A stretch of DNA of 64,000 nucleotides from Polytrichum commune (lineage: Eukaryota > Streptophyta > Polytrichopsida > Polytrichales > Polytrichaceae): the NCBI GenBank assembly GCA_950295325.1, contig OX485806.1, positions 46,371,169 to 46,435,168 of the forward strand, written 5' to 3'. Below are positions 19,915 to 60,100 of this stretch, one piece after another. A program made the translations under genes and the position numbers. Under the pieces are notes generated by a model that had not been told where the DNA came from, searched no databases, and was given only the letters and a program-made list of their open reading frames with translations. Position 1 is the first letter of the stretch. Every line of letters starts with the position of its first letter.

Positions 19915-20700
19915 AGACATGAGCGATGAGTTGGAATTTGTGAGCAACAGGCATAAAATTGGAAATTCCCATAGGTATAAGGATCATATAAGATATTTTA
20001 ACCCATATTATTTGATTATTGCCATGTTTGTGAAAAACAATCTATTGTCATGGAATACCATAACATTAATGATGAACTGATGTATTTTATTATGATGTGT
20101 TGGAAATATACTAAGCCTACTCACATTAGGATAAATCCATCTATGTTCAGATACCTATTGTTTTGAAACATTATTATGAAGACATGACCGCCATGACTAC
20201 TCATGTTCAACCTCACCGACAAGCTCCAATAGATGCATGACTTCGTTGTATGTATGCGTTGGAGCATGAATGAACTTGTTGTTCTCATAATCCAATTTGC
20301 AAAGAAACTTGAACACATAATAAAAGTGTTTGTAGGACACCTACAACATTTTCTCCCCCAAAAAACCTGATGACATTTTAGTGAAGTCCGCACATGTGTA
20401 TTGAGGGATATCTCCAATTATTACATGGTAAGACGTGTCCTCTTTGGAGATGATGTTGATGATCACTCCAAATCCTACATATGGAATGGCAATGACAACA
20501 TAGTATCCATCCATGAGTAAAGCACTCTTCCATGTGTATTTGTTATCCATTGACGATATTGTTGGATTCCAACACACCGCCATTAACATTTTGGAAGTTG
20601 GGTGGACATTAAGGTTTGGTGGCTCACAAAAATGTGGCGACGTGTAAATAGTGTTGCAATTGTTGAAAGTTCACAATGAGGCACAAGTGCATCCCTCTAT
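19915..20700 (-). pseudogene. MULE/SWIM transposase remnant, C-terminal part
   Basis: Read on the minus strand from about 20700 to 20195, the translation matches the C-terminus of the transposase at 43.4-43.95 kb: DGYYVV, YVGFGVIINI, YHVIIGDIP, ADFTKMSS, YKHFYYVF and FIHAPTHTYNEVM occur in the same order. The SWIM cysteines are partly lost (QYTCADF in place of HCTCPDF, YKH in place of CKH) and a stop interrupts the finger. After the stop, near 19917-19930, ATGAGCGATGAG matches the right-end motif of the intact-length MULE, so this is the 3' end of a third, older copy. Confidence 0.75.
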
Positions 20701-29939: not shown

Positions 29940-30010
29940 GGGGAGTGCTATCATGTGAGCGGTGAGCAGTGAGCAATGAGCAATGAGCAGTGACATGTGA
30001 GTGGTGAGGA
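29940..30010 (+). repeat. Left end of the older MULE with TGAGC(G/A)G-type tandem motifs
   Basis: Start GGGGAGTGCTATCATGTGAG, then at least five variants of a 7-10 bp unit (GGTGAGC, AGTGAGC, AATGAGC). Confidence 0.75.
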
Positions 30011-30394
30011 GGGAAAGGATGTTGGTTTTACACACACTTGTATCCTATAACTGTGGATTTTTGACATGAAGTATATGAACACTATCCGTGAAAATATAAA
30101 GGGGGATGGAAAAAATTATCTTTATTTTATAAATCTACATTAGTTTGATTATGTGCAAATGCTTAGGTTGTTTCTTAAATTCAAAAGTCAATAGAAGCGG
30201 CCAACACGTTGTTAAATAAATGCTATGCCAGTAGAGGCACCTTAATGGATAAATGATCTCACTTATAAAAAACTTGAAATCCATGAAAACCAAGTTAGTT
30301 TAAAATTTTGAAAACAAAACCCATTTATTGCAATCATCTAACAATCTCCACATTGCATCCAACAAAACTGGTAATTTTTTCAAAATTCTCAAAA

Positions 30395-30774: not shown

Positions 30775-33090
30775 ACTCAAACGAGTTTTTCTAGCCACCT
30801 TTCTGACAAGTTCTTCATCATCCTCCATGACTATGGATTGTGTTGGTGTTTGCAATCTAAAACGTTAAGCAGGCAATGCACAAAGTGGAGCGAGAATGGT
30901 ATTGAAGATTCGGGAGTCTACTTCATATGCAACAAGGTGTCGACCACTCTTCGAACACGCATAAACAGAAGCACCTACAAACACTATTGAAATAGATTTC
31001 AATATATTAGACTCTAAAATAAATTTGAACAAATGCACATAATCGTGTTACAGTTAAGAAAATGAACTTGTTGATGCAGTTACATCCACAACTACTCCGC
31101 CAGGCTTAGTTAATGATTCGATAAACATTTGATGTATGTCTCGATGTTTTTCTTGAGCACCCCGCCACGGCACTGAACCATCCATTAATTGGTCTTTCTC
31201 TGATGTGTAGTTGAAGATAATATCATCATCCTTGACACTAACACCTTCTTTGATGAGGACTTCATCTTGTTAAATAAAATGGCCATGTTACCTTTTTTGG
31301 CTCGGCGGTAAAAAAATATGCAAAAAAATTTTGACTACAAAACCAACAACATTATGGATATTAGTATACGAGTGTTTCTCACGCCAACATTAATTTTTTC
31401 ATGTAAGAAATTTGAAATAATAATCATCTACACATACCTTTGCAAATGCATCCACACCTGAGTATTGATGCATGGAGTTGATGTCTCACCAATCTCTAAT
31501 GAAATTAAATTCGTAAATTGCTGCAAATTTTTGAACATTTTTGGATTCTGACACGAATAAGAGAATGTGTGCATCATCGTGAAGAAAATGGAATGCAAAT
31601 TCCAAAATTGTTTTTATTTCATCACTATCGTGTTTATTCCATTCTGGAATAACAGATGGTGAGACAAGAGGCACGGGAAGTCCTTCAGACAAATCTGCGA
31701 TCAACAAATCGAATCCTCTGTGTGGACATATATCGTTTGAAATTTGTGTTGTACGCACATCATCAAACTGCACTCGCAAACAATAAAACAACATTAGGAA
31801 AAATGATAGCAATCTTATGTGATGATAACAAACTAACAATTAAATATAATTATTAAATCATCAAAGAAAGAATGTAGATGCTCACTTGTTTTACAAAGTC
31901 GTGAGTGAATTGATATCAATCCCAGGATAGAGGTATTTTCCAACAACACTTGAACCAACGATGAAGAAGGCCTTGCAGGTTATTGAACCACAATCAGGAC
32001 TTCTTGTGAGAAGAAGAAAACTTTGTCTACGTTGATAGGTGTAGATATACATGTTGCATCATTGGTGGTTAGATTTGAAGGTGTATGTGGAATATCAACC
32101 TTCTTACCCTTTTTACGTTTTCGGTTGTATGACCACATTTTTTTGCATGGGTTGGAAATCAATATTATTGGTTTCAATTTATCTTGCGATGCATCAAGGG
32201 GCGTACTTCCGATCATAGCCTTACGCTCAGCCTCTTCTTTTGCTGGATAGAAAGCAGCAGACCAATCCACAAACCAAGGACATTCTTGGAGAACATGAAA
32301 ATCTCAAAGTTTCAATTGTGCGGGAGTGTAAATGCAATTTTTGTGGATTTTTTCTATCCAAGCATTTAAGAAAACATGCAAAGAGAGAAATTCTATTGTT
32401 TTTTTTACGAACAATTTCCTTCGCAGATATCTGTATTGAACAATCACACATACTTAGTCTTTGCATTGCAACTAGCAAAATTGTAATGAAGATATTTAAC
32501 AATTTAAATGCGGTTTTAAAGTTCAAATTACATGTATAAAACTCTCTTCATAGCTATCTCTCCGAAAGGAAAGTCCAAAAGCTTGATGCCCTTAAAGAAT
32601 GGAGGTACTGCACGTATTAAAGTGAAGAATGCTTTATCCCAAAGCATAATACGCCATTTCTCAACATAATCAAAGGCCTTCAATATATCATTCCTCCAAT
32701 GCACTTTACCCAATTCTTTGTCAATATTCTCGAATTTTTTTACAACCTCCTCCTCCAACTACACAATGAAAAAAATATTAACATATATAAAATTAATATA
32801 TAAAAATGATAATCGCATTAAGTAATTAAGCATCTACATGTGACATGAAATTGAAATATTATAAAATACCTGAGCCCACACAGATGCTCGAGCAAGAAAT
32901 GAATCCAATTTTTTTTCCTTTACTGGAGAATGTGGGAAATGATTCGCTGCACGCAACATTGGGCTAGGATTCCACCACCTCAACCACCGCATCTTATATG
33001 TGCCATGAACTGCTGATGTAGCAATTTTTAGCAATTTTTTTAATGTCATCTCCGGTTCTGGATTGGAGTTCCAATGGGTATTGACCTGGA
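30775..33090 (-). pseudogene. Methyltransferase-like gene of the older MULE, 3' half
   Basis: Six exon-like segments on the minus strand match the inner copy in order. They are about 33085-32870 (KMRWLRWWNPSP), 32758-32531 (YVEKWRIMLWDKAF), 32345-31985 (ECPWFVDW), 31767-31485, 31270-31075 and 30985-30785. The segment at 31767 reads FDLLIADLSEGLPVP, in the place of motif IV of beta-class amino-methyltransferases, followed by a helix-strand part ending LLFV. The segment at 31270 has VPWRGAQEK and then VVVDVTAST, like the motif X and motif I order of that class. The last has SGRHLVAYEVDS. Family: DNA N4/N6 methyltransferase-like (PF01555) is inferred from motif order. Stops near 32300 and in the last exon show it is dead. 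Confidence 0.6.
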
Positions 33091-33340: not shown

Positions 33341-33350
33341 TGTTACAATC
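33341..33350. repeat. Left 10-bp target-site duplication of the inner MULE
   Basis: TGTTACAATC, identical to 44269-44278. Nine to eleven bases is typical for MULEs. Confidence 0.8.
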
Positions 33351-33470
33351 GGAGAGTGTTATCATGTGAGCGGTGAGTAATGAGCGGTGAGTGATGAGTA
33401 GTAACTTGTATACGGTGAGTGATGAAAGATTTTTGGAAATACACGCACTAGTACCCTACATCCGTGGTAT
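33351..33470 (+). repeat. Left terminal inverted repeat of the inner MULE
   Basis: GGAGAGTGTTATCATGTGAG followed by a degenerate tandem of GGTGAGTAATGAGC-like motifs to about 33425, then TACACGCACTAGTACCCTA, which the right end mirrors as TACCCTAAACCCGTGTG. Confidence 0.75.
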
Positions 33471-34094
33471 TTTAGCATAAATAATAGCTTAAGGGTTTGA
33501 AAAAAAAAATAATATTGTTGTTGGATTCAACATCCAATTGTAATATCAATGCAAGCACCTTCCAAATATTGCTTTGAACTATATTTCTAAAATTTATGTA
33601 AGTTTGAGAAATGAATTGATGGAGGTAATTAAGTTTTAGGATATAGGGTTCAGGAATAAGAGGAAATTGCTTACACAATTCAATGTTCACTAATGGTGGT
33701 AATTTAAAATGATGAATCCGAACTTTGTCACACATCCAACCAAATAATATCCAATCCAATCATATCCAATCCAATCAAACACATAGTGGATGGTATTGAC
33801 AACTACCTAAATGTCCCTAAACTAATTTAGCTTAATCATTTAGATCATCGCATTGAATCGCCTCATCATCTACATACGGGTTACGAGCAATTCGTGCAGA
33901 CATACGGCGAGGTGTTGGCGTCATTGATCTTGCCATGATTTGAGCAACATTTTCAGCATATACTGGCAAACCATATTTGGAGATGAAGTCATGTTGTTCT
34001 TTTTTCTGCGAAATAAAATCACAAGTGTTAGAGTTCTAGTGCACACATACCAGACATTGGAGGCCAAGTTAGCAAACAATATGGAAAAATAAAA

Positions 34095-37000
34095 AACTTA
34101 CGTACTCAATCGATTTTTTCTCGCAACCTTCTTAACATGCTCTTCATCGGAAATTGATGGAGGCATTATGTGGCATAAATCCACCTACACTAGTAGTTAG
34201 TAGTGGATCACTTAATGGGGATAGAATGGCATCAAACAATGTAGAATCTTCCTCGTATGCAACTAGATGGCGGCCACTATTTCTGCAAGCATGAATAGAT
34301 GCACCTGCCAATGAAATGTTGCAATGTCAGTTAATTTGCAAAAACCATTGACAACACTATAGTGACTTCATTAAAACACATTGAGAGATGATATAATAGG
34401 TCCTTGAGTAAGAGATAAACCAACCTGTAGATGTGTAAGCATCGAGAACAACCGATGCGGGGGTTGTTAAAGCCTCTATTAAGATTTGCATAGATTTTGA
34501 GTCCTTCTCCCTACCACCTCTCCATGGCACTTTTCCGTTCATGAGTTGAGTGCTCACCGATGTAAGATTGAAAAACACATCCAAGGCCTCCACATCCACC
34601 TCAGTATTTCCGTTTATTTTTTGAAAAACAAACTCCGACTTGGGAGTAGAACGAAGAAACAACATGATGCGGAAACGACGAGTCTATAAATCACAAGAAA
34701 TTTTTTACCGGAGGAATCGATTGCAAAATTGAGGAGAACATTGCAATATAATGAAAAAATAGAAATCAAAGTAATAAATAATAAAGTTTAATGTATACCG
34801 CCAATGACCCCGGGTACGCAATTTCCATATTATACGCAAGGGGCATCGTATTAAAAACGGCTTAGAGGACGGCTTTTGTAAAAATTATATCAAATTAAAA
34901 TGATTAAAAAGTTGGGTGAAAACCAAATTAAATAAACTGAGATGAAAAAAAAATTGGGTAAAAACCAAATTAAATAAAATGAGATGAAAAAAAAGTTGGA
35001 TGAAGACCATATTAAATAAATGAGATGAAAAAAAATTGGGTTGCATATTTATTAAAAAAAACTCCAACGTATATAAACAATTGAAACACCTAGTTTTTTA
35101 ACCTTGTAGAGCGTCTAAGAGGGGTATTCAATGTAGATGTCGGATTAATATTCACAAATGATAGAGGGTTCTTTCAAGGTTTCCCTCTTTTGGAAGGAGT
35201 TGTGGCAATTACAGGTGTAACATATTTTTTCTCCCTATCTCTACCTCCACTACATGAGCCTCTACGCTTCATCTCACAATCCATGTGTTTGTTTAAGTGA
35301 AGAATGACCCTCCCAAACGAGCACAAGCACGCTCCAAAGCGACAACACAAAGGCTCCAAAACCGAACACAAAAGCTTCAAAACGAATATATAGAAGCCTC
35401 AAACCCTAAGCCCTAACCCTAAACCGGGAACCCATGATATTTTGAAATACCCCATCATATCCTTGAGTAGTCGGGGCACCATATGATGTATATGGTCTTA
35501 AAAATACATACCTCAACTGTATCCTAACACAAATCATTAATTTTCTATCCCAACAGTTAGACCAGTAAGTTGCCTATACATGATTTTAAAAAATCCACAC
35601 GAATATTTGCCTCCAATTAGAACTATAAGCCACGAATAGTTGCCTCCCATTAAAATTATAAGTCATTCACAATGTTAAAATTTTATTTAAAAGTCGAAAA
35701 AGTTGGGTAGTTTGACCTATGGTACATGTATTAAAAAAATCATATAATTAGGTTTTTAATGCAATTATATGCTTCAAAATATATTCATATCCTATATATA
35801 ATTACATTTTTTGATTCCTTGTTAGAAGGGCTACAAGGGTTTCCTACATTAAAACAGATTGTATCACTCAATATTGGACTAAAACGCATTATAAGTGATT
35901 ATGATCAGGACCATATAATACGGGAGTTGCGTACGTGGGTCAACGACGTGTCAAATGGATAACACAAAGGCAACTTGTTGAAGCCCCACCAATTTTTTCG
36001 CAATACAAAATCACAAGAGGCTACGAATATCCTTACATCGTCTCTAACATCTTTCTTCTTAGGGACAAACTAAAGCAAAGGGCCATCATCGGTGAGATAT
36101 GCACATGCAAATTCAAATAGAGCCTCAATGTTTTTTCTCTTGTGGTCGTTCGAAGGTGGGATTAGATATGGAGGAGATGAAACGTTAGGTACAGGTAAAC
36201 CTTCTAGAAAATCTACATTAATAAGATCAAAACTTCCAAAACTACAATCCTCTGAAGAAACCCTCCTCTTGCGTCCAGAACCCACCTATCAAAAGAACCA
36301 AAAAACAATAATTACACTCAAGTCCAAAGCATGTTGCAAAATCAACACCATATTTTATAAAATAAAAATAAATTCAGTATTCAATATACTGACCTTAGTC
36401 ACAAATTCAAATGTTTTCAACATTAACGGATTCACATGACCATCATTCTCCATCAATATTTGTATTGAAATTTTCTCCAACATCACTGAAGAAATTGGCC
36501 TAGAAGGTGAAGCACCATTGACAATGGTTTTTGACACATGTTGAGATCGTAGTGATCTCGAAATGGGACAAAACTTAGGTCCATCATTGCCTTGAGTGCT
36601 AGTTGTAGATGTTGAGGGACTAGGATTGCGTGCCATAATACCAGTTTGAGATGAAGGTGTTGGATTAGCCTCATCCACCTTTAAGCCACGCTTATGTCTA
36701 GTTTTTCCCTCCGATTTGACTACTTTCACCACACACACATCCTCATTGTTTATCATGTCAATATCATCAGGAGGCAAACCTATTAGACATGATTGTTTCA
36801 TGAGCTCCTCCTCCTCACTTGAACAAAATATAAGAGGACACTCAATGAACCATGGATAAGATTGCAAAGTGGCATAATCCCATATTCTTATCTGGGTTGC
36901 CGTAAAAATGCAAAGGTCACTAGATTTGTCAGCCCATGAAGAGAAACAACTTGGAATGGAGCCCAAGGAGATGGCGTTTGAAGCCAATAACTCGTTTTTT

Positions 37001-39495
37001 ATGTACCTTTGACACAAAATAACAAGTTAATTAAAGTTAGTAAATTAATTATTTCAAGGCAAACTTCAAGCATGCGATGAAATAATTGAAGTTATAAAAC
37101 AAAAAAATATAGAGTACTTGAATACCACTCGTTTGATAGCAATGCCTCCACCAAAAATTTTACCGAGTAGACCTAGATTTTGGCAATGCACTCATGCCAC
37201 CAAAAAAATGCCGGATTGCTTTTGTTCAAAGCATAATGCGCCATTTCTCAATGTACTAAGTAGGCCTAAGTATAGGTGCGCTCCAAAGAATCTTGACATT
37301 CATTTCTTTTTCCATATTATCAAATTGTTTCACAAAATCATCTTCCAACTGCAAAATGACACATATGCATCACGACCATTGACCAAATCATAAAACATTA
37401 AAGTTTTGAAATGAAAACACATAGACATTTAAGGATGAGGGAAAACCTGGGCCCAGAATGACGCTTTGATCAATTATTTTTCAAGTTTTTTTTCATTAAT
37501 ATCTCCCAATGGGAAGCGCAGAGATTCACGGGACATATCGCTAGAATTCTACCACCTCAACCATTTGATTTTGAAGATTAATTTCACTGGAGCAGTTGCA
37601 ATCATTTGTAATTTTTATAGGATCATGGTATGCTCGGAGTGATCTCCAAAATGTTTATTGATTTGTGAAATGGAAGGTGAAAATAGTAAAAAAATTCTCA
37701 TATAGAATGTCGAAATAAATGCTATATAGAAAAACATAATAACTTACCTCATCCAAAAAGTTGAACCCATTGGCTGGATTTGCGACAGCGAGAAGTTTTT
37801 CAAAAAAAATTCACGAATTGATAATATTTTATTTTTTTGCATTCCGCATGACATCCTAAATACCTTTTGTTGTCCTTGATTGAAATGGGATTTTCTCATT
37901 GTATTTACGAGGTGCATTTTCAGTCATAGAGGCTATCTTATGCTATATAAACAAAAAATAAGAATTAGTTTAAGGTTCATTAGTAAAAATATCTTCAATA
38001 ACAAGGCTTAACATGAATTAAAATACCTACCTTATATAGAAATTGACTAAAGACTAGAAACATACATGTTCACATCATGCATAGCATTTAGAAAAAAGGC
38101 CACCGAACCAGTTGATTCAAGTACGATACAATCAACAGAGTAATGTCACTCTCTATCTTCTTTATGCAGCCTATCGATATGGCGGCGCCAAGCTGTCACC
38201 CAATGGTTACCCTTCCAAACAAAAAACATTTTACCACAAAAACTTTCATAATCTTTGTAATTCTTGAGGATTTCCTCAAATGATTTATTGGAAGATTGTC
38301 AGTACTCTCCCCAAGTATCTGCATCCCGAATATCCATAGTATTTTCATCTTTGTCATATGGAGATACGTATAATACCCTATCACCCTCCCTATAACCATT
38401 CACAAATTCATTCTCCAAAAGTTAGACATCGATTTCCAAGATTGAACTCACAACAGGCAACGGTATTAACCGACAAAGAAAGATTGAAAATCTTAGCTTT
38501 GAAAACGGCTTCATATGAAGTCCTCCAATCAAATAATTGAAGTTGGTATTTTGCAAATCTCGCATATGATACAAAGTCTCTTCCACATTCAACAAATCAT
38601 AAGGCAGTGGAGGACCGCTATCGTCATCTCCACCATCCTGAAATACAAATTACAAATAAAATAAAATAAACATACAACTATTAAAAAAAAAAACATTCAA
38701 TCCAACTGAATAAACATTATTCGTCAACAAACAACCACTCACAACAAAAAGCTAAGCCCTCAACCTTTTAGAAATCCTTCTAGCTTCAATTTCAACCTTT
38801 AAGCTTCTTCATTGAAAGTCTTTGATGCACTACAAACCCATCAAGTAAATCACACAACAACTTCCAAGCATACATATCAAAGCAAGATACAAGTAATGAA
38901 GATAAACAAGTGCAAGAAGAAAGACAAAAATAAGACATGAAGAGGCAAGAAGAAAACCCTAAAATTCCAAAAAACCTAGTCTCGGACCCGGAACTCACTT
39001 TGTTAAAATTTTGATGTTTTTTCTTGCTTCTTCATTTGTTGTTTTTGTGGACATTAATGTCTCATTCTCAGCACCTTATGAAAGCAAGGGCTAGATGAAG
39101 GTGATGAAATCCGTGCCCTCAACCTTTAAGAAACATTTGAAGCATTCAAATTCAATCTTCTTACCTTAAGCTTTTGAACCGCGGTGGAGTTGCCCCCTCC
39201 ATCAATTTCCATGCTCCCTCTTCCTTCTTCTATCAAGCGTCTTCTTACTTCATCTTCTATACCATCTCCTCCTTCTTCATCTTCATTCAAGTCTTCCCCT
39301 TCATCCTCGGCTTCAGAAGAATATTCTTGGTGTCCGTAATTCTTTCCGTATTGGTTTCGCCTCCAATGTAAAATGTTGAGCCGAGCCTATCGAAGTATCT
39401 TCGTCTCCGGGCTTAAACAATATAGTTCTCGATGTCAAAAATGCCTCTCCCTCATAGACCCTACTCAAATTTTTGCCCATTCTTGATCTCGCCAA
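34095..39495 (-). pseudogene. Methyltransferase-like gene of the inner MULE, multi-exon, broken
   Basis: The first exon (39495-39165) has a start MARSRMGKNL and, after a frameshift, an acidic Glu/Asp-rich stretch. The second (about 38637-38066) has NGYREGDRVLYVSP and a WRRHI..LHKEDRE region. Others are at 37930-37745 (AVANPANGFNFL), 37680-37450 (KIKWLRWW), 37350-37118 (EKWRIML), 37010-36380 (PWFIECPL, then a Ser/Thr-rich linker), 36285-35935 (FGSFDLINVDFLEGLPVP; later NWWGFNKLPLCYP), 34620-34425 (VPWRGGREK; VVLDAYTSTG) and 34305-34100 (SGRHLVAYEEDS). The order motif IV-like, then motif I-like, then motif II-like is that of circularly permuted beta-class amino-methyltransferases. Several in-frame stops, one of them at a conserved tryptophan near 37246, disable it. 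Catalytic function of the family is unproven. Confidence 0.6.
34890..35050. repeat. Tandem repeat, about 50-bp unit, three copies
   Basis: Three copies of a unit containing AACCAAATTAAATAAA and GAGATGAAAAAAAA, within an intron of the methyltransferase-like pseudogene. Confidence 0.7.
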
Positions 39496-40000
39496 TGTTT
39501 TTATGGTGGAGTATTTAAAACCACCCCTCTTTCTCTTCTGCTTGTTGGTGTCGCATAATCATGTTCTTGCATTTACAACTTTAAAAATATTTTAGGTCTC
39601 TGCATGCGCTTTTTGCATAACCTAAAAACTCTGCTTCACTTTGAAGTTGTAAGAAGTTTGAAAAATATCATAACTCATTATGTCTTGTTCTTCTTTGGGA
39701 TTTAGGGTTTATTAATGGCCCACCACCATCATCTTTGAATCCCAAACATTAAGATATTGAATTTTATTTGGAAGCTAGAAATACGCTATTAAAATATATT
39801 CCTTGCATTGATCATTGTCTATCCAATGTAAGCAACAACTGGCATTATTTTTTTTACACCTACCAACCCATGTGCATCATCTATTTCAATAGACATTCAT
39901 CTAATATATTTTTCAAATCCACAAATTAAAATTTTTAACACACAATATAAGTAGGTCATGGTTTCCATAGTGTGATATACATTGCATCCACACATTCTTC

Positions 40001-40162
40001 ATGGCTACCATCCGTGCTCATGGATCCTTTGTATCCTTCAATTTGCCTCTTGAGGGTGATGGTTGTGTGGTTGTTTTAGAAGATTTGCTTGGTTTGAGAT
40101 TCAACCTCCAAATAGGAACCATTTATGTAGAATTTCCCATTTATGTAGATTATTTTTAGGAT
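40001..40162 (+). pseudogene. Duplicate of the MULE transposase N-terminus
   Basis: A 52-codon frame beginning MATIRAHGSFV repeats the start of the transposase at 40357 (MATIRAHGSFV). The two copies lie 356 bp apart in the same orientation and both continue into a match of CTTGGTTTGAGATTCAACC / TTTAGTTTGAAATTCAACC. This copy keeps the reading frame that the second lost by a short deletion, but stops after 52 residues. It is probably a local duplication within the element. Confidence 0.6.
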
Positions 40163-40356
40163 CTCGTTTAGGATTCTATGTCTTGCTTGTAAATATTCTC
40201 TGAATACTATTATGATTTGTCTCCTTTTGTATTATTAGATGCTATGGTATCACATGTTTTCATTTCCATCCATTATTATATTATACATCATTCAATACAA
40301 AAGGGACATTGATCCAATATTATTGTGAGGTGTTGTTTATCTATTCTTTGTTCTTC

Positions 40357-43300
40357 ATGGCTACCATTAGAGCTCACGGATCTTTTGTTCCCTTCAAGAT
40401 GATGGTCATGTGGTTGTCTCGGAGGATTTGTTTAGTTTGAAATTCAACCTCTAGATAGGAACCATATATTTAGAGAAGGAGATGTACTTTGCAGATGGAG
40501 AGGTGTGTGAAACAATTTTGGTTCAAAAAAATAGAACTGAGGTTGGTTTTATGTGGATCTTAGGACCTGGTTCATTTAGAGTGATAGGTCTTTTTGAGTC
40601 TCAGATGCAAACTTCAACTGTTATATTGACAAACGAATCCGGTACATCCATAGTTCAAATTCCCTATGTTGCACCTGTTAAATTAGAATCCACTGATGAT
40701 AATGTGTTAGTTCTATAAGATTTAGAAGATGACCTTTGTGCATCTGTTGATCTTTCAAACACATCACCGTTTTCATTTAAAAGTGTTCATTCCACTTCTT
40801 CACAACTTTCTATACATGTAGCCAAATCCCCATGCGGTCCTATGTATAGGAGGTTGGTTCCTCAAATCTTACCTTCTCAACGTCCTCCACTACACCCTTC
40901 ACCTTCATCTGTAGGGTCTACTATCGTTGATGCCTTAAAGCTTACAAAGTCAAGAAAAAAATCAAAGTCAAATATCGCATCCATTGATTTTGACAATATA
41001 GATGTTCGTGATGTCAAGTACTTACCATCTTTTTTTAATGCCGACGTTTTGTTTCTCTTGCCCCCTGTGGCACTTAAAGTTCCAAGTACGTATGGCCACT
41101 CAATGGACGACATGAATAAGATGTGCGATGGTCACCTTTGGTGCACCACCAAAACCACGAATATCCAAAATGATTTTGGATTATCCTTCTGGCGGTCTAC
41201 TTGTGCAGGTCATCTCTAATGTCCTAATGACTATTGTGATTACATGCATCGCAATGGGGGTCTCCGAAACAACACCGAATGGGTTGGTTCAACTCCTCTC
41301 CCATTTGTTGTGGGGAATATTTCCCCTATTAGGTCCACTATTGAGTGTAAGGTATGTCGTTCTACACCTGTGTGCATTTCTTTGTGTCATGCTCGAATAA
41401 TATACATCCACTCCACATCTGTTGGTATGTCCAGGGTTTGCATTCATCTTGGTGTACATGATCATCCTGTGGCCAATGGCACATGCTGTGAATCATTGGA
41501 CATGGCATACCAGTGCGTTGCAAATGAAGTATTGAAAACACCCACAGTAAAAAACTTCAGCCATAGTTATGGCAGCGAGCAAACAATTTCTGGCCGATTA
41601 CCTTCTCAAATCTCCCGCTAGTGGCGAAAACCATCACTTGGTTGGTTCATCTCTAGAGGTGGTCATGGACAAGTTCAGCACTCTTGCGTCCCCAAATTGT
41701 CGTAATTTTGTATCTGGATCAAAACGTTTTTTGCATAGTAGAATGGAAACTATGGATAGTATTATGGCACATAAAGACTACTTTGCTTTTAAGTTCGTCC
41801 ACTGTAGTCAGTTCCCAGGGCAATCAAAAGATAAATTGTTTATTTTCAAGATGTCTGTAGACCTACCAGGTAGTGGTGTGGAACTTGTGAAGAAGATGCA
41901 AGTCGGGGGGGAGGATATGGAGAATTTTTGGATTATGTTTGACCATATCAAACGTTTGAAAGATTGGACGATAATGGTTTGCCCTGTATACAACAGTCGA
42001 TACTGTAAAGTGTTAACCATTGCGTGCTGTGATATGCAATATAAAAATGATGCACCACAATTTCTTTTTTGGGAAAATTTGAATTATGTCACGGCAAAAA
42101 ATGGTGTATCAAACGTAAACTTCAAAGGGTTTATGGCTGATAGTGTTCAAGCTAATTGGAATGCGGTGAGGACAATTTATGGGGATGGTGACCCAAGTCT
42201 CCCCATGGTTGCATGTGAGCGTACATGTCTTTTCTATTGATCTACGAGCTTGGATAAGGTGACCCAAAAGTATATCAAACCATCCTTGCAATTTCAACAC
42301 AAGCAAATATGCAAGGATTACAAAGACGCGAAAATAATGGACGACGCCGAGACTAAGTATCATGTGATTCGTTCTTGGTGGTTGTCATCCGGAGCTGCCT
42401 CGGACGAAGGCATCCTTGGCCTTTCAAAGTAGTTGGATTTTTGGCACTTTCATTACAGACAATGGGGTGGTCATATGTTATTTGTAAGTACATATCAAAA
42501 TTCATTATTCAATGTCATTCAATTTTTTTCCACTATTATATATATCTTATGTTTATTTTATCCTCATATTTGTTTCTTGTTCATAGGATATGACAATAGA
42601 AGAAATTGAGGAAATGCCAACTTGCAATTTTGCAGAGACTGTACACAACAAATGGCTCCAATAGTCCGGTAACAAGATGACTTATTTATATGAAGCTATA
42701 GTGGACGACATGATCCGTGCCTATATGCAAATTGCAAATTACTGGACATGGTTGAAAGGGGAGTCTAATGGTAAAGGTCATGGTTCGGCATCTTTGAAAC
42801 TCAAAGCGGCTACGAGATGTGGAGATCCAAAAATGTTGGTTGATGCCATGAAGGCTTACCCAGAGACAGAAGACATCAACACTAGAGATTGTACATTGGA
42901 AGGGTTAGAGCTCTTTGGTTCCACCAAACGCAAATTCAACCTACCACCGAATTTTGATTGTGACTCTCATCGACCCGACAAAGTGAATTATTCCATTTTT
43001 TGTCCCAACACCCGAGCAATTCGTCAACGCATAGAGGAATTATTGATCTCTGCAATTCATGGTATGGCTCATACCACGTCCGTGTTAGAGACTGATTGTC
43101 TTGCTTCTAAGTGGCACATTGCAAGATTACCACCCAACTCAGCCAAACGATGTTGAGCACTGCAAGCCATTACAGGGACTATGTGCAATGCCAAAGTCGA
43201 GACTGGAAAACATGGCACACCTACTCCAACATACAAAGGACTCATGAAGGAATTTCACTCTCTCAACAATGTGGAATATGAATTTTGGTTTTGCCTTGAT

Positions 43301-43954
43301 GACATTAAGCGTTGTGTGAGTGGTAGTAAGAAGAAATATGTGTTAGATTGGCCTATAGTGCCCAACACGTGGCCGGTGAAAATAGGTACCAATCTATCGA
43401 GAGAGGAGATTTTGGCACTTGAAGATGTTGGATTTCAACTACAGCAGAAGGAGGCATTGTCCCCTCGTCGTAGGTTTTCAACAATCACAACTCTCCCCAT
43501 CCCTCGCTTTTATTTTCGTATGCCACCAAACCCGGACGCCCACCCTACATTCAAGTTTGGGAAGACAGTGCGTCGTAATCCAACAGCACCGCTGGCGGAT
43601 CACAAAAACAAATGGGAGAGCGTCGGACTCATGGAAGGTTACTATGTGGTTGGAGTCACTGCCATTCCATATCCGGGCTTTGGAGTGATAATCAACATTT
43701 TTTCCAAGCAGGATATCACATACCATGTCACAATTGGCGACATCCCCCATTGCACGTGTCCAGACTTCACAAAAATGTCCTCTCAAGCATTGGGAAAGAA
43801 AAGGATATGGATGTATTGCAAACATCTTTATTATGTGTTAAGATTTTTGTGCAAGGTGGATTATGATAGTGATAAGTTCATTCATGCACCTACATATACG
43901 TACAATGAGGTTATGTGTTTAGTTGAACTTGCTGGTGTTGTAGAATATGAGTAG
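40357..43954 (+). pseudogene. MULE-family transposase with zinc-binding N-part and C-terminal SWIM finger, broken
   Basis: The transposase of the inner MULE. The N-part has a Cys/His region (CPNDYCDYMHR ... CKVCRSTPVC ... HLGVHDHP; 41215-41470) like WRKY/GCM1-type DNA-binding fingers. The core (41569-42475) contains YCKVLTIACCDMQ, FKGFMADSVQANW and KYIKPSLQFQH, the pattern of MULE DDE transposases. The SWIM finger is intact at 43748-43830 (CTCPDF, then CKH). An intron with GTAAGT...CATAG lies at about 42485-42587. In-frame stops at 40716, 41217, 42238, 42430, 42662 and 43154 and a frameshift near 41555 inactivate it. All five stops from 41217 on can be explained as Trp or Gln codons altered by one transition. 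It ends about 300 bp before the right terminal repeat. Confidence 0.75.
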
Positions 43955-44147
43955 TTGTGCAAATGTTGGTTGTAACTACATGTATAAGGATGTCAATAAA
44001 TGACATGTATTGGTTTGAATTATTATAATAAAAATGAACAATAGATTGAAAGTGTTTTAAATGATCCTTTCACTTGTGCTTCACTTAAATACTGGCAATT
44101 TACAATTGAAAATATGCAATTAATTTGTCAAAAATTTGATTATGTAC

Positions 44148-44268
44148 CCTAAACCCGTGTGTCTTTACTAAATTTGGATTCATTGCTCATATGTTACTGC
44201 TCATTGGTCATGTGTTACTGCTCACTGCTCACCGCTCACTGCTCATCGCTCATAAGATAGTTTCCCTT
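44148..44268 (-). repeat. Right terminal inverted repeat of the inner MULE
   Basis: On the minus strand GGGAAACTATCTTATGAGCG, then GATGAGCAGTGAGCGGTGAG and further variants. Inverted partner of 33351-33470. Confidence 0.75.
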
Positions 44269-44278
44269 TGTTACAATC
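44269..44278. repeat. Right 10-bp target-site duplication of the inner MULE
   Basis: TGTTACAATC, identical to 33341-33350. Confidence 0.8.
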
Positions 44279-45620
44279 TAATATTACAACAACCAAGAAT
44301 CAAGTTTGCAAACATTTAAATATGTAATATTCAAACATGCAAAAAATCAAGTATGCAAATATTATAATAAATAACTCATAATGAAATATAATATAAATTA
44401 AAATTAAAATTAACCTCTGCCAAAAATTCCATTCCGTTTCTTGGATCTGCAACTGCGAGCAATTTCTCAAATTCTCTGGTTATGATACTTTTGATGATTT
44501 TTGTATGTGTCTTTGATATTACCTCTCCCAATCCTTGTTCTGACCTTTCCACGGAAGGTGTAGTCTCATTATAAATCCTACATGCCTCGTCAATAGCCAC
44601 AACAACTTCAAGCTGCATGCACAAATACATAATGAGTCCTTAACTTTCAAAATAAATATGAAAACAAATATACAAAAATGAAATGGGGGTTTGAAATTGG
44701 ACCTTGTACAAGAATCCTACAAAGGCATCAATTATTAAAGCATACCAAGTCGAATTAGCATTTTTTTTCTCACTCTTTTTGTAATCAATAGTTGAAATCA
44801 ATGATTTGAAATCCTCAAGAGGTAGAAGATCAAAATCACGAATGTGATGAAGTTTGTGGACAAGATTGGTCTTCACAGTCATTTTCAGTGGACCTAGGGA
44901 AAAAAATGTTAATCAAAATTTTAAAATTCAAAAACCAAAACAACTTGCAAAAAATGGATATGGATTTTATACATGTTCACATCATGCATTGCTTCAAGAA
45001 GTACTCCAACATTGCCAAATGCATTCAAGCATATGCAATCAACTGCATAATGTCATTCTCGATCCTCTGCATGAAAACGCTCTATATGTCGTCGCCATGT
45101 AATCACTCGATGATTTCCTTCCCAAACAAAAAACATTTTGTTTTGCAAATTGACATATTCATCATCATCAGCATTAAGTTTTTGTTCAAATGAGGCATTA
45201 GCTGCACGCCAATGAACATTCCAAGTTGCTTCCATTTCAACATTCAATTCAAATTGATTGCCATTTTGATAAAAAATTGTTACATAGAGAACCCTATTGC
45301 CTTCTCTGTAGCCATTGATGAATTCACTCTCCAATAATTGCACGTCAACCTCAAGCACATGTCGAACAATAGCCAATGAAACCAAACGACATATAGAATT
45401 GGAAATCCTAGACTTCCCTAATGGTTTAATGCGCAAGTTGCTAATCATAGAATTGAAGTCGGTTTTTTGTGGTTTTAGATCCCATTGACAATCTTTTCAA
45501 CATCCTTCAATAATTCAACATTTATATCATCATTAACGTGATCACTGGCACTACAATCCTGAATCCAAAAACAATTGCAAATTATTAATAAAATATGTAT
45601 TCTCATTTATAATCTCACAC
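44279..45620. mobile_element. Older MULE copy, right part (truncated)
   Basis: Continuation of the element that starts at 29940, displaced by the inner MULE. It holds the 5'-middle exons of the methyltransferase-like gene and then ends in CA-rich repeats at about 45.6 kb. No transposase and no right terminal repeat follow, so this end is truncated or replaced. Confidence 0.6.
44411..45562 (-). pseudogene. Methyltransferase-like gene of the older MULE, 5'-middle part
   Basis: Minus-strand exons match the inner copy exon by exon. The segment at 45562-44970 has NGYREGNRVLYVT, then FFVWEGNHRVITWRRHIERF and an AMHDVNM end. The segments at 44882-44700 (DFDLLPLEDFKSL) and 44600-44411 (KLLAVADPRNGMEFLAEV) follow. 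The next exon in order is at 33085, on the far side of the inner MULE, so the insertion is intronic. The acidic first exon seen at 39.2-39.5 kb in the inner copy is not found here. Stops near 45475 show decay. The role of this N-terminal half is unknown. Confidence 0.6.
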
Positions 45621-46930
45621 ATTCATGCACACACATTCTCATTCTCATTCCATATATACACTCTCACACATAGACACTCACATACACACATATATATATT
45701 ATCACTTACATTCACATAAACATTATCACACATATAGACAAACCACACACACATACACATATTATCACTCACACTCACATATACACTTAACTAAACATAC
45801 ACATACATACATATTCAAACACACTATCACTATCACTCACATTCACATATACTCTCTCATACATATATATAAATCACACACACATACATATTATCACTCA
45901 CTTACACTTACATACACACTTACCTAAACATGCACATACATACATATCACACACACATTATCATTCATATTCATGTACTCTCTCATACATATACAATCTC
46001 ATACATACACACATATTATTACTCACACTCACATTCACACTCTTACACACTTACACTCTCATACTCACACATATATAAATGTGCACACACATTTTCACAC
46101 ACACACACATTTTCATTCATACAAATATACACATACCTTTGTCAATGCATTTGGTGAAGACATTAGATTACACATTCCAAACCCTAACCTTTGGATTATT
46201 TTTCATATCCACACTAACAATCTTATCATTACACTCACATATATATTCACACACACACACACACACACATTTTCATTCATACAAATATACAAATATACAC
46301 ACATACATTTGTCAATGCATTTGGTGAAGACATTAGGTTACACATTCCAAATCCTAACCTTTGGATTATTTCTCATCTTCACACTAACACTCTTATCATT
46401 ACACTCACACATATATTCACACACACACACACACATTTCTATTCACACAAATATATAAACATACCTTTGTCATTGGATTTGGTGAAGACATGGGGTTGCA
46501 TACTCCAAGTTCCTCGTTTTTTATTTATCTTTTATATCCACACTAGTACTCTCATACTCATACACACATTCTCATTTATTCCCTCACACATTTATAGTAA
46601 ACCCTAATATTGCAAATATTGGGTTCCACACTCTAAGTTCCTCACTTTTGGCTTGTCTCTCATATCCACACTTACACTTCCATTCTCACACTCACAACTA
46701 CATTCTCACTCCCACCCACATACACATTCTTACTCACATTCTTACACTAACACACACATTGTCAAATATTCTCATTCACACTTTCACACTCTCATCCTCA
46801 CATACATACATTGTCATTCACACTCTCAATCACATTCTCATTCATACTTTCACATACTCACTCACACTTATACACACTCACATTCACACACACATTCTCA
46901 CTCTCATACTCAAACACTTATATAAAATCC
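45610..46930 (+). repeat. CA-rich low-complexity block with an embedded 160-170-bp repeat
   Basis: Interrupted CACA, CATA and TCACA runs dominate the plus strand. Three copies of a unit containing TTTGGTGAAGACATTAG-like sequence start near 46150, 46320 and 46479, with a fainter fourth near 46617. Long frames rich in His, Thr, Ser and Tyr here are translation artefacts of the repeat. Confidence 0.85.
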
Positions 46931-46974
46931 TAAAACTATTCATATATTGTATGAACACAAATTTGCGAATTTCT

Positions 46975-49625
46975 TAGAATTTTTTGGAAGTTTGGGCATT
47001 CGTTATAAAACTTTTTAGGAAAGGGGATCAATATATTCTTTTAAGTGGCATCTCGGATCCGAGATGCCACTTTCAAAATGATAATCGATCCCCCTTACCC
47101 ATAAGGTTTTATAACCAACTAAAAAAAATCCCTAATTATTGAGCTGATGTGGGAGGGCAAATTTCTCAATTTTGTGGAATTGTTTTGAACAAACTATGAA
47201 ACTTTCCAGGCAAGGGAGATCATTTGTCCTTTTGAAAGGGGCATCTCGGATCCGAGATGCCACAATATAAAAAGGAAAAACATCTACCTCCCATAAAAGT
47301 TTAAAAACAATTCGAAGAAATTTCAAAAAAATCACACAATCCAAAACTATTGATATATTGTATGAACACAATTTTTGGAATTTGTTGCAAATTATTTAGA
47401 TTTTTTTGGAATTTTCAAGCATTAATTATAAAACTTTATGGGAAGGGGGATCAGTATATTTTCTAAAGTGGCATCTCAGATCCGAGATGCCACTTTCAAA
47501 ATGATAATCGATCCCCCTTGCCCATAAGGTTTCATAACCAACTAAAAAAAATCCATAATTATTGAGCTGATGTGGGAGGACAAATTTCTGAATTTTGTGG
47601 AATTGTTTTGAACAAACTATGAAACTTTCTGCGCAAGGGAGATCATTTGTCCTTTTGAAAGGGGCATCTTGGATCCAAGATGCCACATTATAAAAAGAAA
47701 AAACATCTACCTCCCATAAAAATTTACAAGCAATTCGAAGAAATTCCAAAAAACTCGTACAATCCAAAACTATTGATATATTGTATGAACACAATTTTCG
47801 GAATTTATTGCAAATTTTTTAGAATTTGTTTGGAATTTTCGGGCATTAGTTATGAAACTTTATGGGAAGGGGCATCAATATATTCTTTTAAGTGGCATGT
47901 CGCATCCGAGATGCCACTTTCAAAATGATAATCGATCCCCCTTTCCCATAAGGCTTCATAACCAACTAAAAAACATCCATAATTATTGAGCTGATGTGGG
48001 AGGACAAATTTCTAAATTTTGTGGAATTGTTTTGAACAAACTATGAAACTTTCCGGGCAAGGGAGATCATTTGTCATTTTGAAAGGGGCATCTCGGATCC
48101 GAGATGCCACATTATAAAAAGATAAAACATCTACCTCCTATAAAAAGTTACAAGCAATTCGAAGAAATTCCAAAAAACTCGCACAATCCAAAACTATTGA
48201 TATATTGTATGAACACAATTTTCGGAATTTATTGCAAATTTTTTAGAATTTGTTTGGAATTTTTGGGCATTAGTTATGAAACTTTATGGGAAGGGGCATC
48301 AATATATTCTTTTAAGTGGCATGTCGCATCCGAGATGCCAATTTCAAAATGATAATCGATCCCCCTTGCCCATAAGGTTTCATAACCAATTAGAAGAAAT
48401 CTATAATTATTGAGCTGATGTGGGAGGACACATTTCTGAATTTTATGGAATTGTTTTGAACAAACTATGAAAGTTTCCGGGCAAGGGAGATGATTTGTCC
48501 TTTTGAAAGGGGCATCTCGGATCCGCGATGCCACATTATAAAATGAAAACACATCTACCTCCCATAAAAGTTTACAAACAATTCGAAGAAATTCCAAAAA
48601 AAATCACACAATCCAAAACTATTGATATATTGCATGAACAGAATTTTTGGAATTTGTTGCAAATTATTTAGATTTTTTTGAAATTTCCGGGCATTAGTTC
48701 TGAAATTTTATGGGAAGGGGGATCAATATATTTTTTAAAGTGGCATCTCGGATCCGAGATGCCACTTTCAAAATGATAATCGATCCCCCTTGCCGATAAG
48801 GTTTCCTAACCAACTAAAAAAAATCCATCATTATTGAGCTGATGTGGGAGGACAAAATTCTGAATTTTGTGGAATTGTTTTGAACAAACTATGAAACTTT
48901 CTGGGCAAGGAAGATGACTTGTCCTTTTGAAAGGGGCATCTCGGATCCGAGATGCCAAATTATAGAAAAAAAAAACATCTACCTCCCATAAAAGTTTACA
49001 AACAATTCAAAGAAATTTCAAAAAAATCCAAAAAACTTCCAGAGAACTCACACAATCCAAAACTATTGATATATTGTATGAACACAATTTTTGGAAGTTT
49101 TTGCAAATTATTTACAATTATTTGGAATTTTCGTGCATTAGTTATGAAACTTTCTGGGAAGGGGGATCAATATATTTTCTAAAGTGGCATCTCGGATCCG
49201 AGATGCCACTTTCAAAATGATAATCGATCCCCTTTGCCCATAATGTTTCATAACCAACTAAGAAAAAACAATAATTATTGAGTTGATGTGGGAGGACAAA
49301 AGTCTGAATTTTGTGGAATTGTTTTGAACAAACTATGAAACTTTCCGGGCAAGGGAGATCATTTGTCCTTTTGAAAGGGGCATCTCGGATCCGAGATGCC
49401 ATATTATAAAAAGAAAAACATCTACCTCCCATAAAAGTTTACAAACAATTCGAAGAAATTTCAAAAAAATCACACAATCCAAAACTATTGATATATTGTA
49501 TGAACACAATTTTTGGAAGTTTTTGCAAATTAATTAGAATTATTTGGACTTTTCGGGCATTAGTTATGAAACTTTCTAGGAGGGGGGGATCAATATTCCC
49601 CTTCCAAATTCTTATTCAACTTGAG
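46975..49625. repeat. Palindromic tandem array, about 424-bp unit, six units, twelve palindromes
   Basis: Each unit holds two near-perfect palindromes with the core GCATCTCGGATCCGAGATGC. The central six bases (GGATCC or a variant) lie at 47055, 47248, 47478, 47671, 47902, 48095, 48326, 48519, 48750, 48943, 49194 and 49387. Spacing alternates 193 and 230-231 bp, with one 251-bp step caused by about 20 extra bases near 49030. The first palindrome of each unit has arms extending to about 30 bp (AAGTGG...CCACTT). Weaker inverted matches continue outward (AAACTTTATGGG / CCCATAAGGTTT). No coding function is supported. Confidence 0.9.
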
Positions 49626-57136: not shown

Positions 57137-60100
57137 ATGGCGGCGAAGGTTATTTTTGTCAACCAGAATGATAAGGCACAAAGTTTCAAGGTGAATCTTT
57201 TCGGATCTGGTCGGAATCGCGTCAAAGTTGCCAATGTCCTCGCAGTTTTCAAAGCCTCTGTGGCCATTATGGGAGATGGCAGCATTATGGAAGCTGATGA
57301 TGATGGTTTAAGCATGGACACTTTCAATTCTGGAGCCACATATACCATAACCTGTCTACCACAAGGTTGTTTTCATACCCCGCAATTGTATATCACTGTT
57401 AAGTATTTAGTGGTGAGAAGCTGCAGAGATTCTCGGACTATAACAGGATGCTGGATTTCACCTATACATCTTGTCCTACAAGATAGGCGGTTCTTAGCAA
57501 TGACTGCTTCTTGTCTTAATATTATAAAGTGAATGCTCTCGGATGATCAAGATAATTACGCTCTGGACTTTTGAGTTCAAAGGCATCCAGTTAAAAGCCT
57601 GGTCAGCTCAAAGATGGCTATACTTTTAATGTGTTGCAGAAGGAGAAACTAATTACTATTTGTAAATGAGCAGACCCTCACTTAGCTGTGCAAGGTTTTC
57701 AGAGGCCATCAGAATCATCTGAAGATTGTAAGGTCCTTGATTGACCACCTTTATATTAGTTGCAGAGCCAAATTCACAGGACTAACAACAATGGCAGTTT
57801 TACACCGCAACATTAACTTGTAGTACAGTGCAGGTGGGGGGCCTTCTATCAAAATTCATTGCCCCATGATAAAATTGAGTTGAGGATTGAGAACTTTACT
57901 ATTTGATGTAGTGTTCAAATTCTGACTTAGCTGTGCTAACAAGGACATCATTTTTATCTGGCAATTATGAATCTTTTGTGACCTCCTGATGACCTACAGA
58001 GACAAGCTTACAGCAGCTGATGTATTGTAATGGCATTATTTGATGTCTGTGAAATTGGAGTTGTGTAATCTCTACACTGCATGAGAACACTTTGAGCTCA
58101 AATCCATGCATTACAGCTGTCTCTTGAAACTTGGAAAATTGTAATATCTATTCAACGCACATTGTGCTGGAAGTAACTAGGAGAAGAATATTGACCTTGA
58201 TATGAGAACTCAGATATTGGACAACTGATTGTTTCTGCCAAGTTCCCCAGCTGGCTGGAATCAGTACAAGGGGATACTGATAATACCTCCAATGTTGATG
58301 TTATTTTCTCAGAGCAGCAAGCAATGCATACAGTAGCTGAGGAGCCACCTGTAATTATGCCATTGCAGACTTGGGGAGCTAATCCAGGAGGTAATTCCTC
58401 TCTATTTGTTTGGTTCTGTTGTGTACCATGTTCATTAGTGTGAGATTCCGGAGTTGAAAAGCACATTAGGTTATGCAGAAATTGGAATAAATATGCCCAA
58501 TCAAAACGTGTTTCTCATTCCACTCTCTGTACATTTCTTCAAATTATATTAGAGGAAAGTGTCAGACATGCAAAAATTCACCAAGTCATACTGGGTCATT
58601 GTTTTTGTTGGCATTGAATGGAAGAAGATATCTACACTGGTATGTGCAATTATGTTGACCTTGTGAATAGGTTGAATCTTTACCTATGCAAATTACCTTG
58701 GGTCAAAACCAACCACAGTTGAAAAGTATTTCATGTATTCTGTTACTGTGGTAATAAATTTACAAAATAGTGTGCAATCTTGATAAATTATTGTGGGTCA
58801 ACCTAATCGCACATTGCAGTCTAGCTGTGAGGGGAACATAACACCATTCATAACTTTTGGTGTTGATGACATCAATAAAACATCAAAGCAGTTGTAGGGA
58901 TGGAAAATTGGTGGAAAATTCCAATTAGGAAATAAAAGTTGTTTGGACACTTGAATTGTAGCACTACACTATTTGTCCACTTGAAATATTATTTTGAATA
59001 TTATTCAATTTTCCAATTGGCTTGAGGAATGCAACCAAAGCCAAGGTGGTGGGTGAGGAGCAATGAATATTGTCTCAATCGATCATTGTTTTAACAACTT
59101 ATCAGGTTCACAGATTCAGGTGCAGCAAGCACTTCCTTGGAAGAGAAGGTCACAAATACTCACAGTATCAACCCATGGAAAAGATGTAGTGTAGACTATA
59201 ATATTTCCCCCCCTTCTTTAACTTTATTAACCCATTTACACTCACGGATGTATAGATGTAAGGTGCCTCTACCTCACAAATTATTGGATGAGGTTTGCTA
59301 CCTGTTAAGGAGAAATACATGGCAATTCTGAAGGTTTTTGCATGGGTCTGATCAAATCATTTTGTATTCATCTTAAAGATGACAAACTTTTCTATTTAAT
59401 TCTACATGCCTTATAGCAATGCCTAGATACATAAATCACGAAGCTGTATATGAACTTGAAATTGATTATGAAAAGCTCCTAAGGTAGTGGTTCAGTTTCA
59501 GTAAATGTATATGTGCCGACTGGACCATTCAACTACAGCACTTCAATGCGTAGGGCAGATTCATAGGTATTCTTTGACTTGTTTTTGGACTTGCAATCTG
59601 GTTGTGTCACAAGGGTATCCATTTCATCAAATGTTGAGGTCTATACAGGATATGGTATTCATCTCGTGATTTCACATTCTTATACTGCCAGAAGTCTTTG
59701 TCTCAAACAAGTCTCTGATGTCTTGGTGCACTGAAGTGTCTAACAATATTTGTAGGTGATGGGCACCTTGGAAATGTTTCTGAACAGAGATCAATGAATA
59801 AGGCAATGTGCTCGGAATTCTATAATGAAGCATAACTAATACACACATTGTTCATCCCTGATCAAGAGAACAAGAATTGTTCTTAGAACATCTTGAGAAA
59901 AAGTATTTCTCAATCGATTGTAACCAAGTTTGCAGCGGTATTGCAGAAGTACGGTCAATTGCAAATCCGAATATAAATGCACCCAAGGAAAAGCGTAAGG
60001 GGAAAAAGAGAGGTTACGCAGGGCTGCCCATCATGGTCTGTGACCAAGGGGGTCTAGAAACAGTGGAGCCCTCATCGTCTCATGTTGGTCAGCTCTAGTT

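Follow-up and report, generated by a model that had tools for sequence, protein, structure and literature searches.

A methyltransferase-like gene is a regular partner of the transposase in a MULE-like transposon family of the moss Polytrichum commune

A transposon family of the moss Polytrichum commune that resembles Mutator-like elements (MULEs) carries, divergently from its transposase gene, a second gene which, judged by its sequence, is a genuine relative of the beta-class DNA amino-methyltransferases. One member, E1, lies in a stretch of 64,000 nucleotides, referred to as the window, which comprises positions 46,371,169 to 46,435,168 of contig OX485806.1 (assembly GCA_950295325.1). As proposed in a first-pass annotation of the window, the second gene is a regular component of the family and not a one-off capture. 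The genome containing the window (407.8 Mb, 64 contigs) was searched with one transposase probe and three second-gene probes, and a partner was defined as a second gene divergently upstream at 3-25 kb among the matches listed. Such a partner was found for at least 110 of 144 transposase places, which are the best 144 of 2683 first-look candidates; 94 partners lie at 7-12 kb, and the median distance is 9,345 bp. The other orientations yielded 0, 2, and 3 partners, and random positions gave a mean of 1.3, with a maximum of 5 over 200 trials, so that about one pair would be expected by chance. The first two second-gene probes alone sufficed to pair at least 70 of the 144 places. Among the matches listed, no partner was found for 34 places, 27 of which belong to the lower-ranked half of the list. 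A terminal repeat was detected near the second gene at 27 of 30 second-gene loci; the corresponding count for the transposase is 29 of 30. Given this genome-wide pairing, it is very unlikely that the arrangement in E1 is due to chance.

E1 itself has the architecture originally described for it, with an exact 10-bp target duplication and matched terminal repeats enclosing two divergent genes. The two terminal repeats share 38 of 55 positions, and a second comparison yielded 80% over 46 nt; both genes lie between these ends on opposite strands. The second gene consists of several exons on the minus strand and extends from about 38553 to 34201. The first exon of the transposase gene, on the opposite strand, is apparently duplicated (39971-40144 and 40312-40395). 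E1 has decayed and both genes are broken: the second gene contains three stops in a stretch of 166 codons and the transposase gene two stops in a stretch of 293 codons. A search for less decayed copies with both genes between matching ends identified element A (C1:9648778-9663944; 15,167 bp), which is flanked by the exact 10-bp duplication AGGTAACAGA. Its terminal repeats match at 42 of 55 positions, and it contains an open transposase exon of 455 residues and an open frame of 577 residues for the second gene.

The joined C-terminal exons of E1 match the methyltransferase profile PF01555 with E=7e-5 and 23.3 bits. This score is lower than the Pfam cut-off of 26.7 bits, and E1 alone is therefore only suggestive of a methyltransferase. 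The second gene of element A reaches 32.4 bits, which is above the cut-off, and covers profile positions 1-216 of 221; it can thus be excluded that no family member has a significant methyltransferase match. A piece of an F-type element scored 20.7 bits, below the cut-off, and matched a phage DNA methyltransferase family of PHROG with 4e-8. A profile built from six members, of which two are partial, was compared with PDB and yielded solved DNA adenine methyltransferases with E=5e-6, mainly for the part containing motifs X and I. In beta-class amino-methyltransferases, motif IV precedes motifs X and I. The same order was found within the profile match of element A and in the exons of E1 and of E2, an older copy in the window, and the motif order noted at first reading is supported by the match of element A over nearly the whole profile. 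Further methyltransferase-like matches, at about 31% to A, lie at several places in an open frame of exactly 460 residues (for example C3:47762922, C5:48760094, and C6:39020673); these are maybe another subfamily or element type.

Motif IV has the general form D/N/S-P-P-Y/F/W, and a DPPY motif requires its aromatic residue. The motif was readable in 27 of 30 E1/C-type loci. In all 27 the aromatic residue is absent, its position being occupied by Glu (23 loci), Lys (3 loci), or Gln (1 locus). The sequence ADLPEG is present in 15 of these loci, and the exact pattern ADLPEGLPVP occurs at 40 places genome-wide (control: 0). Exact matches of the A-type read DIPD nine times and DIPY once, in copy A itself; the idea that DIPY is the usual A-type state was therefore dropped. 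The one F-type copy read contains QFPN, and QFPNGLDFN was found at five places, DFPNGLDFN at none. Motif I is altered as well: it reads VVLDAYASTG in 11 of 23 readable loci and DLFVGTGAS in element B. Because the aromatic residue of motif IV is replaced in all but one of the copies read, catalysis has probably been lost or changed in most copies. For the same reason we class the product as a methyltransferase-like relative and not as an active enzyme.

Selection on the second gene was assessed by means of the ratio of nonsynonymous to synonymous substitution rates (dN/dS) in E1-like loci (L006-L028) and C-like loci (L029, L030, L032-L035; L031 was left out). Between the two sets, the median dN/dS values were 0.20 for the motif I exon and 0.14 for the motif IV exon, and all usable pairs were below 1 (128/128 and 113/113, from 138 and 115 pairs), with dS near 1.6 and with pairs that share ancestry and are not independent. 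The corresponding medians were 0.33 and 0.65 within the E1-like set (below 1 in 205/239 and 174/235 pairs) and 0.38 and 0.56 within the C-like set. The second gene is kept by purifying selection between the two subfamilies.

The central parts of five elements were examined for repeats, and sites were counted at up to three mismatches. Four of the elements (A, B, C, and F) contain tandem arrays of palindromes away from their ends. The palindrome TTGTGCGCtaGCGCACAA has seven sites in A and six in B, GGTTTCGGtaCCGAAACC has ten sites in C, and F contains two different palindromes, TTTGGGTCGttCGACCCAAA with 20 and CCTGTGCGttAACGCACAGG with eight sites. All array palindromes have a CG on each side of the centre. 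The repeats differ from one subfamily to another; what the arrays have in common is that all of them are palindromic. The first F palindrome was counted one or more times in 24 of 30 transposase loci, F being one of the 24.

Elements of the A/B-type additionally contain a kinase-like stretch that has the same orientation as the second gene (PF00069, E=0.019, below the cut-off and with a hand-joined query). Of the 16 distinct best kinase places, 13 are accompanied by a same-strand second-gene match at a distance of about 1.5-6 kb (in most cases near 4.1 kb), and ten have a listed transposase within 25 kb. A kinase in all family members was considered and rejected, as no kinase match was found in the window. 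The kinase-like stretch has matches of about 30% at many sites (for example C7:11402951 and C2:35844386), a good number of them in an open frame of exactly 708 residues, and 61 of 65 checked places are more than 25 kb away from listed transposase or second-gene matches. These sites perhaps represent a different, kinase-bearing repeat family. The change in motif IV, the palindrome arrays, and the kinase-like stretch of one subfamily go beyond the first-pass annotation.

How might such a gene serve the element? We see an even chance that it encodes a DNA-binding pseudo-methyltransferase which recognises its own element in order to counter silencing or to aid transposition. The gene, carried divergently from a MULE-like transposase, is an old accessory gene related to bacterial-type beta-class DNA amino-methyltransferases, and its product most likely no longer methylates bases in the usual way. 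According to this proposal, the protein would instead act as a sequence-specific DNA-binding, possibly S-adenosylmethionine-binding, factor. It may bind the arrays of palindromes that belong to its own subfamily; this binding could keep the element unsilenced or help to gather transposition complexes. The array mechanism is suggested by the VANDAL MULEs, in which the anti-silencing protein VANC has its targets within tandem repeats, and these repeats vary from one related element to the next (PMC5735166, available in part). A role in de-silencing or transposition, as considered in the first-pass annotation, appears more attractive in light of the palindrome arrays, although these do not show it. 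A more specific version, which we consider only tentatively, is self-recognition: the protein of each subfamily would read its own array, in the manner of ParB on parS or of VANC on its repeats, and would de-silence or mobilise its own copies alone, and protein and array would co-evolve.

Several observations weigh against this proposal. Among young copies the second gene is under weaker selection than the transposase, whose median dN/dS is 0.11; between A and B, dN/dS of the second gene is 0.52 over its full frame, and its methyltransferase part reaches 0.87 on 13 changes. The DIPY of copy A implies that some copies may be active, and motif IV was read in a single F-type copy, the site being unread for most copies of this type. 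No palindrome array was found in E1. The palindromes are also not fully private, as the half-site TGTGCG is common to the A palindrome and the second F palindrome, whereas the other half-sites differ. The array in the window (46974-49596) may be the central array of E2, but it is not assignable to this copy. Perfect palindrome centres are numerous in the arrays (4 in A, 7 in C, and 14 in F per 1.5-kb stretch; 8 in the 2.6-kb window array) compared to base shuffles of these stretches (mean 0.01-0.04, at most 2) and to the window outside 29940-50000 (5 in 44 kb, 3 of them in one 1.5-kb stretch); however, the array stretches were picked after the arrays had been seen, the shuffles take no account of tandem duplication, and the copies are not independent. 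Finally, both AlphaFold predictions are of low confidence, with predicted local distance difference test (pLDDT) values of 34 for the second gene and 33 for the transposase.

Among the alternatives, the product could be a functional DNA methyltransferase, acting on N6 of adenine or N4 of cytosine, by which the element marks its own DNA. The sequence relationship, the motif order, and the DIPY of copy A agree with this explanation, and so does the palindromic nature of the arrays, as many methyltransferase sites are palindromes. A protein of an Ectocarpus transposon has been proposed to act in this way (PMC12477816, available in part). The replacement of the motif IV aromatic in 27/27 E1/C-type loci, in 9/10 A-type matches, and in the single F-type copy for which it was read makes such an activity unlikely; marking or protection of the element, among the roles originally considered, is not supported in the form of methylation. 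About equally unlikely, in our estimate, is a transposition cofactor comparable to MURB or Mutyl mutB, which would act together with the transposase while the arrays are unrelated. It would fit the divergent pairing and the co-maintenance with the transposase, and MULEs are known to carry additional genes that function in DNA binding or integration (PMC6446971, consulted in excerpts); a cofactor acting at the termini would not explain internal arrays that differ between subfamilies, which is an indirect argument. A captured passenger without function, like the cargo of Pack-MULEs, would account for the decay of many copies and for the moderate dN/dS among young copies. This explanation is already disfavoured by the pairing at no fewer than 110 of the 144 listed places and by the median dN/dS of 0.14-0.20 between the two subfamilies, and we regard it as highly improbable.

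The pattern CxC...CxH is the signature of the SWIM zinc finger and is visible in the transposase, yet the match to PF04434 is weak (E=0.039-0.067, below the cut-off), and the transposase exons tried gave no Pfam match to a MULE transposase. The 10-bp duplications and the terminal repeats indicate a MULE-like element: target-site duplications of MULEs comprise 8-11 bp, with which E1 and A agree (PMC6446971, in the excerpts at hand); in element B, 8 of 10 positions of the duplication match by reading.

A ParB domain in the N-terminal half of the second gene, suggested by the stretch KMFFVWEGNHRVTAWRRHI, was likewise considered and was supported by no test; there is solely a GNHR resemblance by eye. 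Searches of the second gene for ParB gave no match in Pfam and none in PDB. With PHROG, ParB was hit by one of four members (E=0.25), and one of four matched an unnamed phage family (E=0.0024). Searching phages by means of tblastn resulted in four weak matches, none of them labelled ParB, and a genome scan with PF02195 in four matches, none on an element. A ParB profile comparison did not exceed shuffles; after an insert had been cut out by hand, the score was equalled or exceeded by 34 of 60 shuffles. The small contigs C10, C12, and C23 (L001-L003) contain bacterial or phage-like genes and are probably assembly contaminants. In C12 a single frame encodes ParB fused to a methyltransferase; in C10 both profile matches lie in frames of 722 residues. 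The fusion of C12, used as a query, found three viral loci and no locus in the genome contigs.

The coordinates of all features are listed in the table. The flanks on both sides of E1 belong to one older copy, and E1 has therefore jumped into its own relative E2. The first-pass annotation had listed a nearby older copy with the same exon order; this copy is real, but it is the host of the E1 insertion and its exons are split around E1. Its motif IV reads DLSEG. Neither a right end nor a transposase of E2 was found in the 64-kb window; a 10-bp match at 58643 was considered as the right end, showed no terminal repeat on reading, and was taken as chance. Long CA-rich imperfect simple repeats occupy positions 45600-46930, between the last E2 exon found and the 424-bp array.

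Table. Features of E1, E2, and further pieces in the window
Feature	Position	Strand	Basis or remark
E1, MULE-like element with two divergent genes	33351..44268	.	10-bp target duplication, terminal repeats, gene matches
Target-site duplication, left copy TGTTACAATC	33341..33350	+	exact
Target-site duplication, right copy TGTTACAATC	44269..44278	+	exact
E1 left terminal inverted repeat	33351..33405	+	38/55 matching
E1 right terminal inverted repeat	44214..44268	-	related repeat in 29/30 transposase loci
E1 transposase gene, SWIM-like C terminus	39971..43951	+	tblastn with exons of element A, 60-88% identity
E1 second gene, GNHR-motif exon (resembles ParB by eye only)	38056..38553	-	3 stops in E1
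E1 second gene, middle exons	37447..37936	-	tblastn to relative C
E1 second gene, exon preceding the methyltransferase part	36802..37005	-	exon matching to relatives
E1 second gene, motif IV exon, reading DFLEG	35947..36231	-	DLPEG in most readable E1/C-type relatives
E1 second gene, exons of motifs X and I (VPWRGGREK ... VVLDAYTSTG ... GRHLVAYEED)	34201..34683	-	PF01555 E=7e-5
E2 left terminal repeat	29940..30061	+	74% to E1 33351-33473
E2 second gene, C-terminal and middle exons	30880..33082	-	exon matching
E2 second gene, exons beyond E1, including the GNHR-type exon	44409..45469	-	exon matching
Third-copy fragment, 3' end of a related transposase	20200..20655	-	59-61% identical
About six 424-bp tandem repeats with two palindromes each, 12 copies of the 22-bp palindrome GGCATCTCGGATCCGAGATGCC counted with up to 3 mismatches	46974..49596	.	

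With respect to accessory genes of other MULEs, we know of no relationship between mudrB and methyltransferases. Such genes include mudrB, mutB, vanB, and vanC, and maize MuDR (mudrA/mudrB) resembles the moss family in being a two-gene MULE whose accessory protein is apparently needed for integration, while the function of mudrB is given as unknown (PMC6446971, in the excerpts at hand). The VANDAL elements share with the moss family the accessory genes and the internal tandem arrays that differ between related elements (here A, B, C, and F). In contrast, VANC contains DUF1985/DUF287, no methyltransferase is mentioned in the part of the paper available (PMC5735166), and the arrays of the moss elements are palindromic. 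No Pfam match to DUF1985/DUF287 occurred among the second-gene pieces scanned; the second gene is not a member of the VANC family, and it may work like VANC.

The general idea of a transposon with a modification gene of this kind is already in print, as a Sola transposon of Ectocarpus encodes a comparable protein, ParB-like and methyltransferase, opposite its transposase; green and red algal cases are cited there (PMC12477816, in the part available). Both systems have a gene for an N4/N6-type methyltransferase domain opposite the transposase of a large DNA transposon, and the Ectocarpus protein has been suggested to bind its own element and to modify it, just as binding to the own element is proposed here. 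Unlike the moss elements, Sola is not a MULE and its protein has a ParB-like domain, for which no significant match was obtained here. The altered motif IV (in the copies read) and the palindrome arrays are observations on the moss side. Retrotransposons with DNMT or Dam-like adenine methyltransferases also represent transposon-borne DNA methyltransferase genes, but they are not DNA transposons with terminal repeats, their methyltransferases belong to other classes, and the DNMTs methylate CG (PMC5890265, in excerpts). Bacterial ParB-methylase fusions similarly combine an adenine methylase with an additional domain, whereas the tests for a ParB part were negative here (PMC5512222, in excerpts). 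Among the titles, abstract beginnings, and passages of the open-licence literature, no MULE with a methyltransferase-like gene was found.

DNA transposons that carry genes for DNA modification are a young topic, with one case described in Ectocarpus and algal cases cited, as far as the available parts of the literature go. The moss family, with more than 100 paired copies, a selected but, in its catalytic site, apparently altered protein, and differing arrays, would offer a testable system for the way in which transposons might evade silencing without a working modification enzyme. It would be a possible second parallel to VANC.

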